The notes under the pieces were generated by a model. It saw nothing but the letters and a program-made list of their open reading frames with translations. It was not told where the DNA came from and made no database searches. A program made the position numbers and the translations under genes. From positions 682,001 to 746,000 of the forward strand of contig NZ_FMYH01000001.1 of the NCBI RefSeq assembly GCF_900096585.1: 64,000 bases of DNA. The letters run 5' to 3'. Source of the DNA: Sanguibacter gelidistatuariae (GTDB lineage: Bacteria > Actinomycetota > Actinomycetes > Actinomycetales > Cellulomonadaceae). Of this stretch, positions 31,362-38,006 are shown in pieces. Positions within the stretch are counted from its first letter, which is position 1, and each line of letters opens with the position of its first letter.

Positions 31362-32938
31362 TCACGCTCACCTTCATCCCGCTCGACGACCGGCCCGCCA
31401 CCCGGGCGATCCCGCAGGAGGTCGCCGCGATTGCGGGGGTGAGGGTCGAGACTCCGCCCGTCGAGCTCCGTCCGAACTGCCGGGTGGCACCGGATGCCGA
31501 GGCCGTCTCGGCCTGGTTCCGCGCCTCTCGAGCCCGCACGGACGCGGCCGTGGTCAGCCTCGACGCCCTCGGCTTCGGCGGTCTCATCGGCTCTCGGATC
31601 GGCCACGAGGACCTCGACGAGGTGCTCGCGAACTGGCGTCCGCTCAAGGAAGCCGGCGGACCGGTGCACGCCGCGATCGTCGTGCCCCGTACCCCGAACA
31701 GCCTGGACGCGATGGAAGAGCCCGAGTACTGGAGCATCCACGGTCCGGCCCTGCACGCGCTGTCCGCCCAGCTCGCCTCGACCGAGGACGACCTCGCTGC
31801 GGCCCGCCTAGCAGTCGCCCCCGCCGTGCCCGACGACGTCGTGACGGACTGGACGGGCCGTCGCCTGCGCCAGCACACGCTCGCCCTCGCGGCGCTGGGC
31901 CTGGCCCAGCGCGGCACCCTCGCCTCGCTCGTGATCGGCGTGGACGACGCCGCGCACCGCTCGCTCTCCGCCCGCGCCCAAGGGGACCTGGCGCGCTGGT
32001 CGCAGATCGTGGGGACGACCGACCGGGTGATCGTGCACCCCGGCGCCGACGAGACCGGCGCGGTGCTCGTCGCCCGGGCGATCGGTCAGCACATGGGCAC
32101 GGGCGGCCCGAAGGTCGCCCTCCGGTGCGCTGACGCCGACGGCCTCGACCGCCCGGCCCCCTATGAGACCGGACCGGTGCGCCTCACCGTCGTGCGCCAG
32201 CTCGAGGCGGCCGGCGCCCGCGTGGTCGAGGACGTGGCCGACGCCGACGTCGTCCTCGTCGTACACCCGCCGTACTGCCCCGAGTGCGGGCCGAGCGCCG
32301 GCTGCGCCGTCGACCATGCGAGCTGGGCCGGTACAGACCCCACGACCTGGGACTGGGACGGTGCAGCACGCACCGCGGCCGAGATCGACACGCTGCTCGC
32401 CGCCGGCCACCGGGTGGCCTTGGCCGACGTCGCTCAGCCCAACGGCGCCGACCCGGCTCTGGTCGAGACGCTGCTGCCCGTCCTGGACTGGTCCCGGCTC
32501 GACGGCTACGGCGCCTGGAACACCGCCGGGAACACGCTGGGCAGCGTCGCGGCCCAGCTGGTCGTGACCTACCTCGGCCGGATCGGCGGGACCTTCGACG
32601 CCTCTGCACACCGTGTCTCGATCGCCCGTCGAGTGGTCGAGGACTACGGCTGGATGAGCCTCGTGCGGCACAAGGCCCGCATCGAGCTCGGCTCCGACCC
32701 CGCCCGCCACGACGCGGTGAGCGGCGAGCACCCGGCCGCTCCCGCGTGGGAGCGGGAGCTCGGCGCGGTCCTGACCGGCAGCGCCGGCCTGGAGGGCCTG
32801 GTCGTGGTCCCGGGGAGCCTGAGCTTCCCCTGGGACCGCACCTTCGAGATCGACCTTGTCATCGTCGACCGGACCCAGACCCAGACCCAGACCCAGACCC
32901 AGACCCAGACCCAGACCCAGACCGGAGCTGGCCGATGA
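31358..32938 (+). CDS. DUF4127 family protein
   Basis: 526 residues from ATG 31358 (GAGGAG 5 bp before), overlapping the ROK stop. The DUF4127 N-terminus is clear: LTFIPLDDRPATRAIPQ, then VETPPVELRP. Later segments typical of the family include VVSLDALGFGGLIGSRIG, VPRTPNSLDAMEEPEYW, IGVDDAAHRSL, HPGADETGAVLVAR and LDGYGAWNTAGNTLGSVAAQL. A CPECGPSAGC cysteine patch lies in the middle. No signal peptide. The reaction is unknown; its place between a sugar kinase and ManNAc-6-P epimerase under a GntR/HutC regulator suggests amino-sugar or glycan catabolism. The C-terminus carries an eight-unit Thr-Gln repeat. Confidence 0.85.
   Translation: MITLTFIPLDDRPATRAIPQEVAAIAGVRVETPPVELRPNCRVAPDAEAVSAWFRASRARTDAAVVSLDALGFGGLIGSRIGHEDLDEVLANWRPLKEAGGPVHAAIVVPRTPNSLDAMEEPEYWSIHGPALHALSAQLASTEDDLAAARLAVAPAVPDDVVTDWTGRRLRQHTLALAALGLAQRGTLASLVIGVDDAAHRSLSARAQGDLARWSQIVGTTDRVIVHPGADETGAVLVARAIGQHMGTGGPKVALRCADADGLDRPAPYETGPVRLTVVRQLEAAGARVVEDVADADVVLVVHPPYCPECGPSAGCAVDHASWAGTDPTTWDWDGAARTAAEIDTLLAAGHRVALADVAQPNGADPALVETLLPVLDWSRLDGYGAWNTAGNTLGSVAAQLVVTYLGRIGGTFDASAHRVSIARRVVEDYGWMSLVRHKARIELGSDPARHDAVSGEHPAAPAWERELGAVLTGSAGLEGLVVVPGSLSFPWDRTFEIDLVIVDRTQTQTQTQTQTQTQTQTGAGR
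32873..32920 (+). repeat. ACCCAG hexamer x8 at the DUF4127 C-terminus
   Basis: Eight perfect tandem ACCCAG units encode (Thr-Gln)8 just before the stop codon. Unit gain or loss would keep the frame and only change tail length. Confidence 0.95.
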
Positions 32939-33684: not shown

Positions 33685-34941
33685 TCAGGCGCGGAGCGCG
33701 ATCTCCACGTCCTCGATGAGGTCGAGCGGGTCTTCGAGGCCGATGCTCAGGCGCACGGTCGTCTCCGCGATGCCGACGGCGGCGCGGCCCTCGGGGCCGA
33801 GCTTGCGGTGCGTCGTCGTCGCCGGGTGCGTGATGAGCGACTTCGCGTCACCGAGGTTGTTGGAGATGTCGATGACCTCGAGCGCGTCGAGGAAGGCGAA
33901 GGTGCGCTTCTTGGCGGTCTCGGGATCCGTGCCCTCGGGGACCGCCAGGTCGAAGGTGACCACGGTCCCGCCGCCGGTCTGCTGCTTGCGGGCGAGATCG
34001 TACTGGGGGTGCGAGGGCAGGAAGGGGTAGCGCACCCGGGAGATCCCGGGCAGCGTCTCCAGGTGCTCGGCGACCCTGAGCGCGGCTGCGGTCTGGGCGT
34101 GCACCCGCAGCGGGAGCGTCTCCAGGCCCTTGAGCAGCACCCACGCGTTGAAGGGGCTCAGCGACGGCCCGGTGTTGCGGATGAATTTCTGGACGGGTCC
34201 GTCGATGTACTCCTTCGACCCGAGGATCGCCCCGCCGAGCACCCGGCCCTGGCCGTCGATGTGCTTGGTCGCGGAGTAGACGACGACGTCCGCGCCGAGG
34301 GAGAAGGGCTGCTGCAAGATCGGGGTGGCAAAGACGTTGTCGAGCACGACGACGGCGCCGGCCGCGTGCGCGAGCTCGCAGACCGCCACGACGTCGACGA
34401 TGTCTTGCATGGGGTTGGACGGCGTCTCGAAGAACACGACGTCGGCCGGGGTGGCCAGGGCGGCCTCCCACTGGTCCAGCTCGTGGCCGTCGACGTAGTC
34501 GACCGTGATGCCCCAGTCGGCGAAGATCTCGTCGAAGATCACCACGGTCGAGCCGAAGAGCGCGCGGGCGGAGACGATCCGGCTGCCCGACTTCACGAGG
34601 GCGGCGAGGGAGGTGAAGACCGCGGACATGCCGGTCGCGGTCGCGTAGCAGGCCTCCGCGCCGTCGAGCAGGCGCAGGCGCTCCTCGAACATGTGCACGG
34701 TGGGGTTGCCGTAGCGGGAGTAGATGAAGCGGTCGACCTCGCCCTTGAAGGCGGACTCCGCTTCGCCGGCGCTCGAGTAGACGTACCCCTGGGTGAGGTA
34801 GATCGGCTCGGAGGTCTCCTGGAAGTTCGAGCGGACCTGACCGCCGCGGACCGAGACGGTCGCGGGGCGCAGCGCGCGGGCCGTGGTGGTCTCGTCGGTG
34901 GGACAGTCGGCGCCGGGCTCGGGCGTGGTCACGGTCGTCAC
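33685..34941 (-). CDS. metZ: O-succinylhomoserine sulfhydrylase
   Basis: 418 residues, Cys/Met metabolism PLP enzyme. Start is GTG 34941, overlapping the rhodanese stop (GTGA). Seen: SRYGNPTVHMFEERL, ATATGMSAVFTSLAAL, SPSNP-like ETPSNPMQDIVDV, the PLP-lysine motif VVYSATKHIDGQGR and SLITHPATTTHRKL. The last motif and ITHPAT context fit MetZ, which makes homocysteine from O-succinylhomoserine and sulfide; O-acetylhomoserine as substrate cannot be excluded. It is controlled with rhodanese by a SAM-I riboswitch. Confidence 0.9.
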   Translation of the reverse strand: MTTVTTPEPGADCPTDETTTARALRPATVSVRGGQVRSNFQETSEPIYLTQGYVYSSAGEAESAFKGEVDRFIYSRYGNPTVHMFEERLRLLDGAEACYATATGMSAVFTSLAALVKSGSRIVSARALFGSTVVIFDEIFADWGITVDYVDGHELDQWEAALATPADVVFFETPSNPMQDIVDVVAVCELAHAAGAVVVLDNVFATPILQQPFSLGADVVVYSATKHIDGQGRVLGGAILGSKEYIDGPVQKFIRNTGPSLSPFNAWVLLKGLETLPLRVHAQTAAALRVAEHLETLPGISRVRYPFLPSHPQYDLARKQQTGGGTVVTFDLAVPEGTDPETAKKRTFAFLDALEVIDISNNLGDAKSLITHPATTTHRKLGPEGRAAVGIAETTVRLSIGLEDPLDLIEDVEIALRA

Positions 34942-35381
34942 TCCCCGGCGGTGTAGGTCGTGGCAGGCAGGCCGCGCAGGCGCCAGCCGTTGACCGTGCG
35001 GCGACCGGCGGCGTCGGTGTCTCCCTCGAAGCCCTCGAGGATGTTGTAGGCCGGGCCGAAACCGGCTGCGGTCGCGTCGGTCGCGGCGCCGATCGACCGG
35101 TTGCCGGAGCGGCACAGGAAGACGATGGGGCGCTCGTCGCCGGGGGTGAGGCCAGCGGCCGCGAGCTCGGCGATGAAGTTCTCGTTCGGGCCGAAGGGCG
35201 TGGCCCACTCGATGAAGGCTTCGCGATTGCCGCCGGCGTCGGTGGAACCGAGCGCAGAGGTGTCCGGGACGCCGATCTGGCGCCATTCGCCCTCGGTGCG
35301 CACGTCCACGAGGATCGCGCCCGGGTTGGTCTCGAGCAGGTCCCAGGCCTGCTGGGGGGTGAGGTCGCCTGCGTAGCTCAT
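34938..35381 (-). CDS. Rhodanese-domain protein
   Basis: 147 residues from ATG 35381 with GGAGGC 6 bases before it. A single rhodanese domain: TPQQAWDLLETNPGAILVDVRTEGEW and the active-site loop IVFLCRSGNRS with the catalytic Cys. It likely handles sulfane sulfur. Translational coupling to metZ and a shared SAM-I riboswitch tie it to methionine-linked sulfur assimilation. A longer in-frame start at 35489 lies inside the riboswitch and is rejected. Confidence 0.9.
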   Translation of the reverse strand: MSYAGDLTPQQAWDLLETNPGAILVDVRTEGEWRQIGVPDTSALGSTDAGGNREAFIEWATPFGPNENFIAELAAAGLTPGDERPIVFLCRSGNRSIGAATDATAAGFGPAYNILEGFEGDTDAAGRRTVNGWRLRGLPATTYTAGE

Positions 35382-35398
35382 GTGTTGCCTCCGTGTCG

Positions 35399-35508
35399 TC
35401 CATCGGTTCCGGCGGTAGCACCCTCGCCCTGCGTCAGCCACATTCGGGCTGCTCAGGGGGGTTGCTGCGGCGTCGTCGTGCCAGATCACTCAGCCGCTCT
35501 GGATGGTG
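35399..35508 (-). promoter_or_regulatory. SAM-I (S-box) riboswitch
   Basis: Reading the minus strand: P1 CCATC (35506-35502) pairs with GATGG (35404-35400). The core runs CAGAGCGGCTGAGTGA, GGCACGACGACGCC, then GCAGCAACCC, a P3 arm (CTGAGCAGCC...GGCTGACGCAG), and GGGTGCTACCGCCGGAACC. These correspond in order to the S-box AGAG, GGC...CGATGAxGCC, GCAACC and GGTGCTA motifs. It ends 18 bases before the rhodanese ATG and just before the Shine-Dalgarno, so control is probably translational: SAM binding would switch off rhodanese and metZ. Confidence 0.82.
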
Positions 35509-35584
35509 TGTCCCACTGAGCATCACCCCGGACGCCGAATCTGAGACGGTCGGTCCATCATGCGAGACGGTGGGTGGTCGCGGA

Positions 35585-35613
35585 TTGACACCCCTTGAAT
35601 CGTCGCGAATGCT
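35585..35613 (+). promoter_or_regulatory. Promoter for the SAM-IV transcript
   Basis: A perfect -35 TTGACA (35585-35590), a 17-base spacer and -10-like AATGCT (35608-35613). The predicted start (about 35619-35621) falls exactly at the first base of the SAM-IV aptamer. Confidence 0.6.
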
Positions 35614-35619
35614 GAACAC

Positions 35620-35699
35620 AGGTCATGAGTGCCAGCGCAAAACCCCGGTTTGCTGGCCGGCAACCCTCCACCGCGGTGGGGTGCCCCGGGTGAAGACCT
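35620..35699 (+). promoter_or_regulatory. SAM-IV riboswitch
   Basis: P1 AGGTC (35620-35624) pairs with GACCT (35695-35699). Between them come CATGAGTGCCAGCG, CCCCGGTTTGCTGG, CCGGCAACCCTCC, a CACCGCGGTG-like arm, and GGGTGCCCCGGGTGA, matching the actinobacterial SAM-IV consensus almost throughout. It sits 93 bases before the start of the cysteine-desulfurase-like gene. Small hairpins and a GATCC/GGATC pairing that overlaps the GGAGG ribosome site (35782-35786) could be the expression platform. Confidence 0.92.
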
Positions 35700-35792
35700 G
35701 GCCGGAGCCGAGAATGGCGTCCGGCAAGCGCGGGGTCGGCTGCTCCTTGTCGGAGCGGCATGGCGATCCCCACAACTGCACGGAGGATCCTC

Positions 35793-37187
35793 ATGTCTGT
35801 CCTGACCCCCATCGAAGCCCGTTCCTGCCTGCCCGTCGTCGGCTCCGACACCCTCGTCCCGCTCGTCGACGGACGCACCGTCCCCTACGCCAACCTCGAC
35901 TGCGCGGCCAGCGCCCCGGCCCTGCTCGCCGTGGCCGAGCGCGTCACCGCGACCCTGCCGCTCTACGCGAGCGTGCACCGCGGCGCCGGCTACCTCTCCC
36001 AGGTCTCCACCGCCCTCTACGAGGCCAGCCGGCAGACCATCGGCGCCTTCGTCGGAGCGCGCACCGACGACGTCACGGTCGTCACCCGCAACACGACCGA
36101 CGCGCTCAACCTCCTTGCCGGCTGCGTGCCGGCCGACGCCGACGGCCGCGCAGGCCGCGTGCTCGTGCTCGACGTCGAGCACCACGCGAACCTGCTGCCC
36201 TGGCAGCGCAGCGCGGGCGGGGCCACCGTCCTGATCGGCGCGGACTCCGTCGCGCACACCCTCGACGCGCTGCGCGCCGAGCTCGCTCGCGCGCCCTACG
36301 CGCTCCTCGCGCTGACCGGCGCGTCCAACGTCACGGGGGAGTACCTCCCGGTGGCCGACGTCGTCGCGCTCGCCCACGAGGCCGGCGCGCGGGTCGTGCT
36401 CGACGGCGCCCAGCTCGTCCCGCACCGCCGCTTCTCCCTCGCCGCGACCGGCGTCGACTACATCGCCTACTCCGGTCACAAGACCTACGCGCCCTTCGGC
36501 GCCGGCGCGCTCGTGGGACGCCGCGACTGGCTCGACGCGGGCACCCCGTACCTGGCCGGCGGCGGCGCCGTGCGCCAGGTCGACCTCGACTCCGTCTCCT
36601 GGGGGACCGCCCCGGCGCGCCACGAGGCCGGCTCGCCGAACGTGATCGGCGCGGTCGCGCTCGCCGCGGCCTGCGACGCGCTCGCGGCCCTGCCTGCCGG
36701 CACCCTCGAGGCGCACGAAGCATTCCTGCGCGAACGCCTGGTCTCCGGCCTGGAGTCGATCGACGGTATCGAGGTCGTCCGGGCTTGGGCCGACGCCGTC
36801 GACCCGGTCGGCGTGGTGACCTTCTCCGTCGTCGGGCACGACCCCGGCCTCGTCGCGGCCTACCTGTCGGCCGAGCACGGCATCGGCGTGCGCGACGGGC
36901 GCTTCTGCGCCCACCCGCTGCTCGCGCGCCTGGGCTACTCCGCGGGAGCCGTCCGGGCCAGCGTCGGCGTGGGTACCACGCACGACGAGGTCGACCGGCT
37001 GATCAGCGCCCTCGAGATCTACCTGAGCGAGGGCCCGAGCGCCGCGTACGAGATCGTCGACGTGTGCTGGACCGTGACCGGCGACCCGCGCCCGCTCCCC
37101 GAAGGCAGCGGCCTGTCCGGTCTGATCGCCACAGCCGCAGCCGGCTTCATCGCCGCCGCCGCAGGCTGCGGCCCGGCCGAGCAGTAA
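35793..37187 (+). CDS. Aminotransferase class V, cysteine-desulfurase-like
   Basis: 464 residues from ATG 35793 (GGAGG 6 bp before). PLP fold type I: YANLDCAASAPAL at the N-terminus, RNTTDALNLLAG, EHHANLLPW, VLDGAQLVPH (PLP Asp), SGHKTYAPFGAGALVG (PLP Lys), and a SufS-like Cys in RDGRFCAHPLL. A C-terminal extension of about 45 residues after the fold is not usual. A SAM-IV riboswitch links it to methionine/SAM supply, so sulfur transfer for methionine synthesis is more likely than Fe-S assembly. Its true substrate is open. Confidence 0.82.
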   Translation: MSVLTPIEARSCLPVVGSDTLVPLVDGRTVPYANLDCAASAPALLAVAERVTATLPLYASVHRGAGYLSQVSTALYEASRQTIGAFVGARTDDVTVVTRNTTDALNLLAGCVPADADGRAGRVLVLDVEHHANLLPWQRSAGGATVLIGADSVAHTLDALRAELARAPYALLALTGASNVTGEYLPVADVVALAHEAGARVVLDGAQLVPHRRFSLAATGVDYIAYSGHKTYAPFGAGALVGRRDWLDAGTPYLAGGGAVRQVDLDSVSWGTAPARHEAGSPNVIGAVALAAACDALAALPAGTLEAHEAFLRERLVSGLESIDGIEVVRAWADAVDPVGVVTFSVVGHDPGLVAAYLSAEHGIGVRDGRFCAHPLLARLGYSAGAVRASVGVGTTHDEVDRLISALEIYLSEGPSAAYEIVDVCWTVTGDPRPLPEGSGLSGLIATAAAGFIAAAAGCGPAEQ

Positions 37188-37385: not shown

Positions 37386-38006
37386 TCAGTCGCGGATCAA
37401 GATGCCCAGGTGGGCGGCGAGCGCGGGCGCGAGGTCCTGGAACTGGTCGGAGCTGATCGTGGCGCCCTTGAGGCCGGTGAGCCCGGTGAGGTGTCCGAGC
37501 TCGGCCCCGCGCAGGTCGACGTTCTTGAGCTGAGACCGGCTCAGTGTCAGGTGCGCGACCCGGGTCGAGGTGAAGGTCACCGCGGTCGCTTTAACCCCAG
37601 ACAGGTCGAGTTCGCCGATCACGCAGTCGGTGAAGGTCAGCCCGGCGATGCGGGTGTCGCGCATGTTGAGGTAGTCGATCTTGGTCCCGTGGAAGGCCAC
37701 GCGCGACCAGTTCGACCCGAAGGCCTGAACCCCGCCGAGGCGGCTCGCCTTCACTGTCACGTCCTGCCAGTCGCCGTCGGAGGCATCGAGGGTGTCCGCG
37801 TTGACCGCGGTGAAGGTCGTCTCCATGATCCGGGCGGACTGCAGGTCGGCCCCGGAGAGCTGGGTGCCCTCGAAGGTGCACTCGATCAGGCGCGATCCGG
37901 AGGCGTCGACGCCGCTGAGGTCTTCACTCCCGAAGGTGACCCTCTCGATGTAGGCCTCGGGTTCGAGGCGGTCTGAGTCGGGGTCATAGGGGCTGGGAGG
38001 AACCAT
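37386..38006 (-). CDS. Pentapeptide-repeat protein
   Basis: 206 residues. From about residue 20 to 175 it follows the A(D/N)LxX-type five-residue rhythm (for example LSGVDASGSRLIECTFEGTQ, then LSGADLQSARIMETTF), which builds a right-handed beta-helix. Some such proteins mimic DNA and protect gyrase (Qnr/MfpA), but length and sequence do not show that. Isolated gene with no partner. Confidence 0.85.
   Translation of the reverse strand: MVPPSPYDPDSDRLEPEAYIERVTFGSEDLSGVDASGSRLIECTFEGTQLSGADLQSARIMETTFTAVNADTLDASDGDWQDVTVKASRLGGVQAFGSNWSRVAFHGTKIDYLNMRDTRIAGLTFTDCVIGELDLSGVKATAVTFTSTRVAHLTLSRSQLKNVDLRGAELGHLTGLTGLKGATISSDQFQDLAPALAAHLGILIRD

Follow-up and report, generated by a model that had tools for sequence, protein, structure and literature searches.

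Divergent SAM-I-type and SAM-IV riboswitches form a conserved pair at a sulfur locus of Sanguibacter and its family

Several RNA classes can serve one ligand in bacteria, and the reason for keeping more than one is an open question. Three SAM-binding classes, SAM-I, SAM-IV and SAM-I/IV, have been compared in a cryo-EM paper and are built on a common binding core; relative to SAM-I, SAM-IV is described there as having no P4 but an additional PK-2 and P5, whereas SAM-I/IV has P4 and no PK-1 (PMC6890682). Two riboswitches may also stand together at one sulfur gene or locus. A SAM-I and an AdoCbl riboswitch precede metE of Bacillus clausii (PMC2258182), and two SAM classes, SAM-II and SAM-V, occur at one locus in Pelagibacter (PMC11508383). 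The locus described here lies in a window of 64,000 nt of Sanguibacter DNA, the whole stretch that was analysed, and offers a natural side-by-side comparison: two riboswitch classes of one clan, both for one ligand, are separated by a spacer of about 110 bp and have orthologues in at least 20 genera.

Gene content and coordinates of the locus

At gathering thresholds, the whole window contains two Rfam matches, RF00162 (SAM) on the minus strand and RF00634 (SAM-IV) on the plus strand (Table 1), and a permissive scan of positions 35300-35850 (E up to 1) returned no further match. Both identities had been proposed in a sequence-only reading of the window, together with a back-to-back layout on opposite strands and a distance of about 110 bp between the aptamers. 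Neither Infernal score falls under the gathering threshold of its model, the measured gap is 111 bp, and the same divergent pair recurs in 102 of 120 family loci. The phrase 'two folds', used in that reading for the pair, is too strong, since Rfam places the two aptamers in a single clan and the structural comparison gives them a common binding core (PMC6890682).

The genes assigned to the two leaders, rhodanese-metZ and a cysteine-desulfurase-like gene, are likewise borne out by profile scores (PF00581 and NF005870 for the former, TIGR01979 and Aminotran_5 for the latter). The start codon of metZ is uncertain by eye, being a GTG at about 34941 or at 34932, and the part of the gene that was scanned spans 33685-34911. 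The SufS-like protein is a class V aminotransferase of the cysteine-desulfurase type whose TIGR01979 score lies under the cut-off of 475.1. It contains the motifs SGHKTYAP and RDGRFCAHPL, and we take the lysine of the first (PLP) and the mobile cysteine of the second to be the catalytic residues of cysteine desulfurases. Both motifs align with PDB entries 9ddd, 8odq and 6wci. Cysteine desulfurase, rhodanese and MetZ could together pass sulfur from cysteine to homocysteine. MetZ is not the sole route of the host, because cystathionine gamma-synthase and O-acetylhomoserine sulfhydrylase are also encoded in its genome.

Three SAM-IV and two SAM-I matches are found in the host genome. The SAM-I leaders lie upstream of rhodanese-metZ and of methylenetetrahydrofolate reductase, and the SAM-IV leaders precede the SufS-like gene, an SsuE-like FMN reductase (89 bits, under the cut-off of 164) and an NtaA/DmoA-like monooxygenase (108.5 bits, under the cut-off of 279.7). 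Elsewhere in the window, a DUF4127 gene carries near its end eight Thr-Gln repeats (32873-32920, plus strand), a short tandem coding repeat, and the SufS-like gene adjoins a pentapeptide-repeat protein gene (37386-38006, minus strand) for which Qnr-type models score far under their cut-offs.

Table 1. Coordinates of genes, aptamers and candidate regulatory elements in the window
Feature	Position	Strand	Basis
metZ, O-succinylhomoserine sulfhydrylase	33685..34941	-	NF005870 736.8 bits, cut-off 618
Rhodanese-domain gene, first of the SAM-I leader	34938..35381	-	PF00581 33 bits
Shine-Dalgarno GGAGG of the rhodanese gene, 7 nt past P1	35388..35392	-	sequence
SAM-I-type (S-box) aptamer without P4	35397..35509	-	RF00162 49.6 bits, gathering 44.4, E 2.2e-08
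SAM-I P1	35502-35506/35400-35404	-	alignment coordinates
SAM-I PK-1	35481-35484 with 35409-35412	-	alignment coordinates
SAM-I P3 strands	35460-35465 and 35418-35422	-	alignment coordinates
Inter-aptamer spacer, 111 bp, expected site of both promoters	35510..35620	.	aptamer boundaries, family spacers
GATGCT, weak -10 candidate of the SAM-I leader	35519..35524	-	by eye
Upstream GAGAC copy, 37 nt before TTGACA	35543..35547	+	sequence
Downstream GAGAC copy, 16 nt before TTGACA	35564..35568	+	sequence
TTGACA, -35 candidate of the SAM-IV leader	35585..35590	+	conserved position in the family
AATGCT, -10 candidate of the SAM-IV leader	35608-35613	+	by eye
SAM-IV aptamer	35621..35736	+	RF00634 114.2 bits, gathering 38, E 2.3e-20; no non-standard pair marked
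SAM-IV PK-1 5' strand	35644-35648	+	alignment coordinates
SAM-IV PK-2 5' strand	35671-35676	+	alignment coordinates
GCGCGGGG, PK-2 3' strand and tail, proposed switch strand 1	35728..35735	+	alignment, platform analysis
C-rich middle segment GCGATCCCCAC, proposed switch strand 2	35763..35773	+	best pairing stretch with both neighbours
Shine-Dalgarno GGAGGA of the SufS-like gene, proposed switch strand 3	35782..35787	+	sequence, platform analysis
SufS-like cysteine desulfurase gene, 464 aa	35793..37187	+	TIGR01979 286.4 bits; Aminotran_5 270.5 bits

Conservation of the divergent pair and the genes behind each class

The divergent SAM-I/SAM-IV pair is a conserved arrangement rather than an accident, because the layout recurs in most sampled genomes of the family, the Cellulomonadaceae. 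SAM-I and SAM-IV each have matches (E up to 0.001) in 134 of 150 family genomes, and among the best 150 matches of each class there are at least 39 pairs whose members lie no more than 3 kb apart; they come from 11 genera, and every one of the 39 is divergent. The SufS-like protein is present at E up to 1e-90 in 121 of the 150 genomes; one gene that begins at a contig end was left out, which gave a census of 120 loci, 90 of them with 1.9 kb of upstream sequence and 30 with 1.5 kb flanks. SAM-IV lies upstream of the SufS-like gene at all 120 loci (30 by Rfam, 90 by model R2, with Rfam agreeing in 18 of 18 loci checked). On the rhodanese-metZ side, model R1 detects SAM-I in 72 of the 90 and all 30, or 102 of 120 loci, with a lowest match of 73.5 bits; the model was built from 21 family members that lie partly inside the census, and Rfam by itself backs at least 39 pairs and 14 more loci, seven at or above gathering and seven under it. 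Some SAM-I orthologues score below the RF00162 gathering threshold, down to 37 bits. Every one of the 102 pairs is divergent, and every one has SAM-IV on the SufS-like side and SAM-I on the rhodanese-metZ side. The spacer measures 80-170 bp in 72 of them (full range 86-1354 bp), and spacers of this short kind are found in 20 of the 23 genera that have a pair.

Rhodanese or metZ is missing from the fetched sequence in 16 of the 18 loci without SAM-I. At two loci of genus 25 (L112 and L118), rhodanese-metZ is kept beside the SAM-IV leader and no SAM-I was detected. The SufS-like genes of three genomes of genus 5, whose loci are without SAM-I, are merely 60-62% identical. At an Oerskovia locus with a long gap (L248, 1184-2026), a gene for an APH-family phosphotransferase lies between the leaders, both of which are kept. 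A different layout is seen at L293 and L294 (G014), where two SAM-I leaders about 1 kb apart stand on the same strand, upstream of MetE-like and MetF-like genes.

Within the family, the sampled SAM-I leaders are mostly found ahead of metF or metE, and SAM-IV leaders ahead of sulfur-scavenging genes. The samples are non-random and consist of the best-scoring listed sites outside the pairs. The 38 other SAM-I sites (24 + 14) precede genes for MTHFR (32), MetE (3), an NlpA lipoprotein (1) and acyl-CoA dehydrogenase-like proteins (2). The SAM-IV sample comprises 36 sites, 33 of which have a reading frame, at least four of these without a listed family and probably representing wrong frames; luciferase-like monooxygenase (10), FMN reductase (9), flavin reductase (1) and several importers are found behind the 33.

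This division does not hold as a rule of the whole order, where SAM-I also precedes dimethylsulfone monooxygenase SfnG, a sulfonate/nitrate-type ABC ATPase and a flavin reductase outside the family. The SfnG gene (591.8 bits, cut-off 383) lies behind SAM-I at locus L240 (2549-2896), and the SAM-IV leader facing it is upstream of a MetN-like ATPase. In the order sample of 119 genomes, nine of them from the family, all 13 SAM riboswitch pairs less than 400 bp apart among the matches listed are divergent, and four of the 13 belong to the family; seven SAM-I/SAM-IV pairs among the matches listed come from two other families. In two other families (f14 and f13), the SufS-like gene carries SAM-IV in four of four loci read. 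It adjoins a SAM-I leader in the three f14 loci read, with methylenetetrahydrofolate reductase behind SAM-I in two of the three, and in the f13 locus it lies 1.6 kb from a SAM-I leader with rhodanese-metZ. The partner genes thus differ between these loci, which suggests that a leader stays with its gene while its partner can change. Divergent pairs of a single class also occur in other families: at L242 (1983-2278), two SAM-I leaders are 119 bp apart, one of them upstream of a flavin reductase, and at L243 (2025-2340), two SAM-IV leaders are 97 bp apart between genes for an amino acid permease and a solute-binding protein.

The existence of same-class pairs implies that the mixing of classes is not required for divergent pairs, and it bears on two explanations of the mixture. 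The affinities published for individual SAM-I and SAM-IV RNAs are not the same, and the two classes could form a sensor with two thresholds, each responding at a different SAM level such that methionine synthesis and sulfur mobilisation are shut off in a set order. The split of sites by function in the family sample and the constant assignment of class to side in 102 of 102 pairs would suit such a device; however, same-class divergent pairs exist and the split fails outside the family, so that inheritance of a leader with its gene explains the data equally well. We regard the two-threshold explanation as unlikely, and the two leaders might, hypothetically, differ in their sensitivity to SAM, as the sequence-only reading had suggested. 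A second explanation, that different classes avoid the long inverted repeat that two identical aptamers would create, agrees with the local alignment of the two window aptamers, which share just 7-bp exact matches, but the SAM-I/SAM-I pair (119 bp) and the SAM-IV/SAM-IV pair (97 bp) of other families speak against it and make it highly improbable.

Structure of the two leaders and their proposed mode of control

The alignment of the minus-strand element to RF00162 includes the internal loop of P2 and PK-1 (L2 to J3/4). The distance from P3 to the 3' strand of P1 is 12-14 nt in all 102 census loci, which leaves no room for P4. Among other SAM-I sites, 21 of 24 give 13-14 nt by script and the remaining three by eye, an earlier GGTGC having misled the count; by eye, P4 also seems to be missing from six SAM-I sites of two other families, whereas the hairpin is present at one site of a further family. 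SAM-I/IV (RF01725) was considered as the identity of the element and rejected, because its model matches nothing in the host genome even at E up to 10. Since there is no room for P4 in 102 of 102 loci and RF01725 is unmatched, the element is, as judged by sequence comparison, a P4-less variant of the SAM-I type and not a canonical SAM-I. PK-1 could be parsed in 101 of the 102 loci, where it pairs GTGG with CCAC (49), CTGG with CCAG (32) or other combinations (20, among them 14 whose outer pair is non-standard and one with a mismatched inner pair).

In 77 loci the 3' strand of P1 is GATGGAGG, and in another 17 it is GATGGGAGGA. By a motif rule, the Shine-Dalgarno sequence overlaps P1 by one or two bases in 94 of 102 loci, and the first ATG follows P1 within 15 nt in 94 of 102. 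A ribosome site within the 3' strand of P1 is a described mode of SAM-I control, and a rule of 15 nt for direct control is given in the same source (PMC2258182). P1 of the window ends 7 nt before the Shine-Dalgarno sequence and 18 nt before the ATG, and the latter exceeds this rule. The eight loci whose Shine-Dalgarno sequence lies off P1 include the window and three other Sanguibacter, and the displacement affects four of the six Sanguibacter.

Constrained folding with RNAfold gave no clear change of accessibility in either group of SAM-I leaders. Shine-Dalgarno accessibility was 0.31 with P1 and 0.37 without it in 82 overlapping leaders, and 0.47 and 0.48, respectively, in 19 displaced ones; the script, which takes the Shine-Dalgarno sequence nearest the start codon, failed on one leader, and its 82 and 19 differ from the 94 and 8 of the motif rule mostly because of genus 8, with its repeated GGAGG. 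With so little change, RNAfold accessibility was rejected as proof of SAM-I switching. Translational control by SAM-I, considered likely in the sequence-only reading, thus agrees with the general mode in the family, where the Shine-Dalgarno sequence touches P1 in 94 of 102 loci; for the window itself it is weakened by a Shine-Dalgarno sequence outside P1 and by folding without a clear change.

The plus-strand aptamer contains, as RF00634 does, PK-1, P5 after P1, and PK-2 with its 3' tail (pseudoknot pairing by eye). A platform of 93 bases had been ascribed to it; the aptamer reaches 35736 and leaves 56 nt to the ATG, the larger figure having counted P5 and the PK-2 strand. The platforms of the family were compared at 111 loci, after seven of the 120 without a start site and two with too short a middle were set aside. 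In 102 of the 111, the stretch of the C-rich segment that pairs best with the PK-2 tail and the one that pairs best with the Shine-Dalgarno sequence overlap by at least 4 nt. Against shuffled middles the effect is modest, with median z of -0.93 and -0.85 over the 111 platforms and both values below -1 in 26 of them. The window platform itself (z +0.30 and -0.31) does no better than shuffles, so that support for the platform comes from the comparison between species. A swap test, done after the shuffle control, exchanged segments between species in 104 short platforms (85 distinct, 20 genera); long SAM-IV platforms are found in genera 14, 16 and 18. Native pairing of tail and middle came to -14.89 kcal/mol against -12.48 when swapped, and native pairing of middle and Shine-Dalgarno sequence -10.07 against -9.37, with 0 of 300 swaps reaching the native value in either case. 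With one sequence per genus, in six draws, tail and middle again gave 0 of 300 in six of six, and middle and Shine-Dalgarno sequence 1-34 of 300.

On this comparative evidence, the PK-2 tail, the C-rich segment and the Shine-Dalgarno sequence covary between species. Because the swap test favours both native pairings, SAM-IV is probably translational too, acting as an OFF switch via its platform. The contrast drawn in the sequence-only reading, between a translational SAM-I and a SAM-IV with a long platform, does not survive, as SAM-IV platforms also show covarying sequestration of the Shine-Dalgarno sequence.

Alternatively, SAM-IV, and SAM-I where the Shine-Dalgarno sequence is displaced, could act through termination of transcription, either intrinsic or by Rho. 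The predicted fold has a hairpin after the window SAM-IV aptamer, and the window SAM-I has its Shine-Dalgarno sequence outside P1, as this alternative would have it. Against it, the hairpin is without a U-run, no terminator-like site is present in 35350-35850 on either strand, and the shorter platforms of the family set a complementary segment against the Shine-Dalgarno sequence. An intrinsic terminator was accordingly rejected for this region, and transcriptional control as a whole appears doubtful.

The spacer between the aptamers has conserved features of its own, which were counted in 77 family spacers under 200 bp and compared with shuffles. TTGAC occurs 36-40 nt upstream of SAM-IV in 74 of the 77 (shuffles 1.7), in accord with the earlier view that the SAM-IV aptamer starts at its predicted transcription start, and 69 have a minus-strand TANNNT no more than 18 nt from the start of SAM-I (shuffles 1.4). 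In the window spacer, this interval contains no TANNNT. A strict sigma-70 consensus scan of 35350-35850 found no promoter, and the promoter reading therefore rests on conservation. GAGAC or its complement GTCTC is present in 69 of the 77 short spacers (shuffles 26), and GAGAC precedes TTGAC by 14-17 nt 49 times, by 36-38 nt 12 times and by other distances seven times. These two preferred distances differ by about two turns of the helix, a phasing that a bound protein would be expected to give, and the phased GAGAC is possibly the site of an activator of sulfur genes. Genome-wide, GAGAC followed by TTGAC occurs at 23 sites against eight in a reversed control, with no clear regulon; some other SAM leaders have GAGAC ahead of them and others do not, and it is absent from the three f14 SufS-like leaders.

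Initiation via GAGAC in a shared promoter region could be the main control, with riboswitches that are minor or partly decayed. The frequency of GAGAC or GTCTC in the spacers (69 of 77) and its fixed spacing to the -35 box fit this possibility, and decay might be suggested by the displaced Shine-Dalgarno sequence in four of six Sanguibacter and by the absence of SAM-I beside rhodanese-metZ in two loci. It is opposed by the strong conservation of the aptamer cores and by PK-1, which changes on both sides together (GTGG/CCAC or CTGG/CCAG), and we consider it quite unlikely.

The explanation that we favour, and hold to be reasonably probable, is that of a conserved divergent SAM-responsive sulfur locus, in which two independent riboswitches turn their genes down at translation when SAM is bound and the classes are mixed by gene set. 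One riboswitch would lie in each leader of back-to-back promoters. In most relatives, P1 of SAM-I includes part of the Shine-Dalgarno sequence, which would be hidden once SAM stabilises P1; in the window, where this sequence lies 7 nt downstream, hindrance beside P1 is likely, and this is the weakest step. In the SAM-IV leader, SAM would stabilise PK-2, and the C-rich segment thus released would pair with the Shine-Dalgarno sequence; without SAM the PK-2 tail would pair with the C-rich segment and leave the Shine-Dalgarno sequence free. The classes would be mixed because each has its own genes in the family, methionine synthesis for SAM-I and sulfur scavenging for SAM-IV, and this locus is where the two sets come together. 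A fall in SAM would then lead to more sulfur release from cysteine and to its capture as homocysteine by MetZ. An extended version, a family-wide dual SAM sensor with one set point for rhodanese-MetZ capture, another for SufS-like release, and an activator input through GAGAC, would amount to a cysteine-to-homocysteine shunt tuned by RNA and DNA; we put it forward as speculation of low probability.

Comparison with known SAM riboswitches and riboswitch pairs

Taken singly, the two riboswitches belong to known classes and are ordinary save for the missing P4; what is unusual is their conserved head-to-head arrangement. A search of open-licence literature turned up no earlier description of divergent SAM-I/SAM-IV pairs and none of a SAM-I without P4. 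The minus-strand element resembles SAM-I (RF00162) in P1, P2 with its internal loop, P3, PK-1 and a score above gathering, and differs from it in P4, which is part of SAM-I in the structural comparison (PMC6890682). It is related to SAM-I/IV (RF01725) as well, whose absence of PK-1 and presence of P4 are the reverse of what is seen here (PMC6890682). A conserved P4-less aptamer of the SAM-I type with a co-changing PK-1 makes the role of P4 testable on natural sequences. The plus-strand aptamer is a full-length match to SAM-IV (RF00634) with the strands of PK-1, P5 and PK-2, and no difference from that class was seen in the aptamer. The three-strand platform is proposed here, although Weinberg 2008, reportedly the founding paper of SAM-IV, may already discuss platforms.

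Among loci with two riboswitches, metE of Bacillus clausii is alike in having two at one sulfur gene and unlike in that the SAM-I and AdoCbl riboswitches bind different ligands and share one leader (PMC2258182). Pelagibacter comes close in bringing two SAM classes to one locus, where SAM-II and SAM-V are described as one tandem riboswitch (PMC11508383), whereas SAM-I and SAM-IV of the present locus lie on opposite strands and belong to two transcripts.
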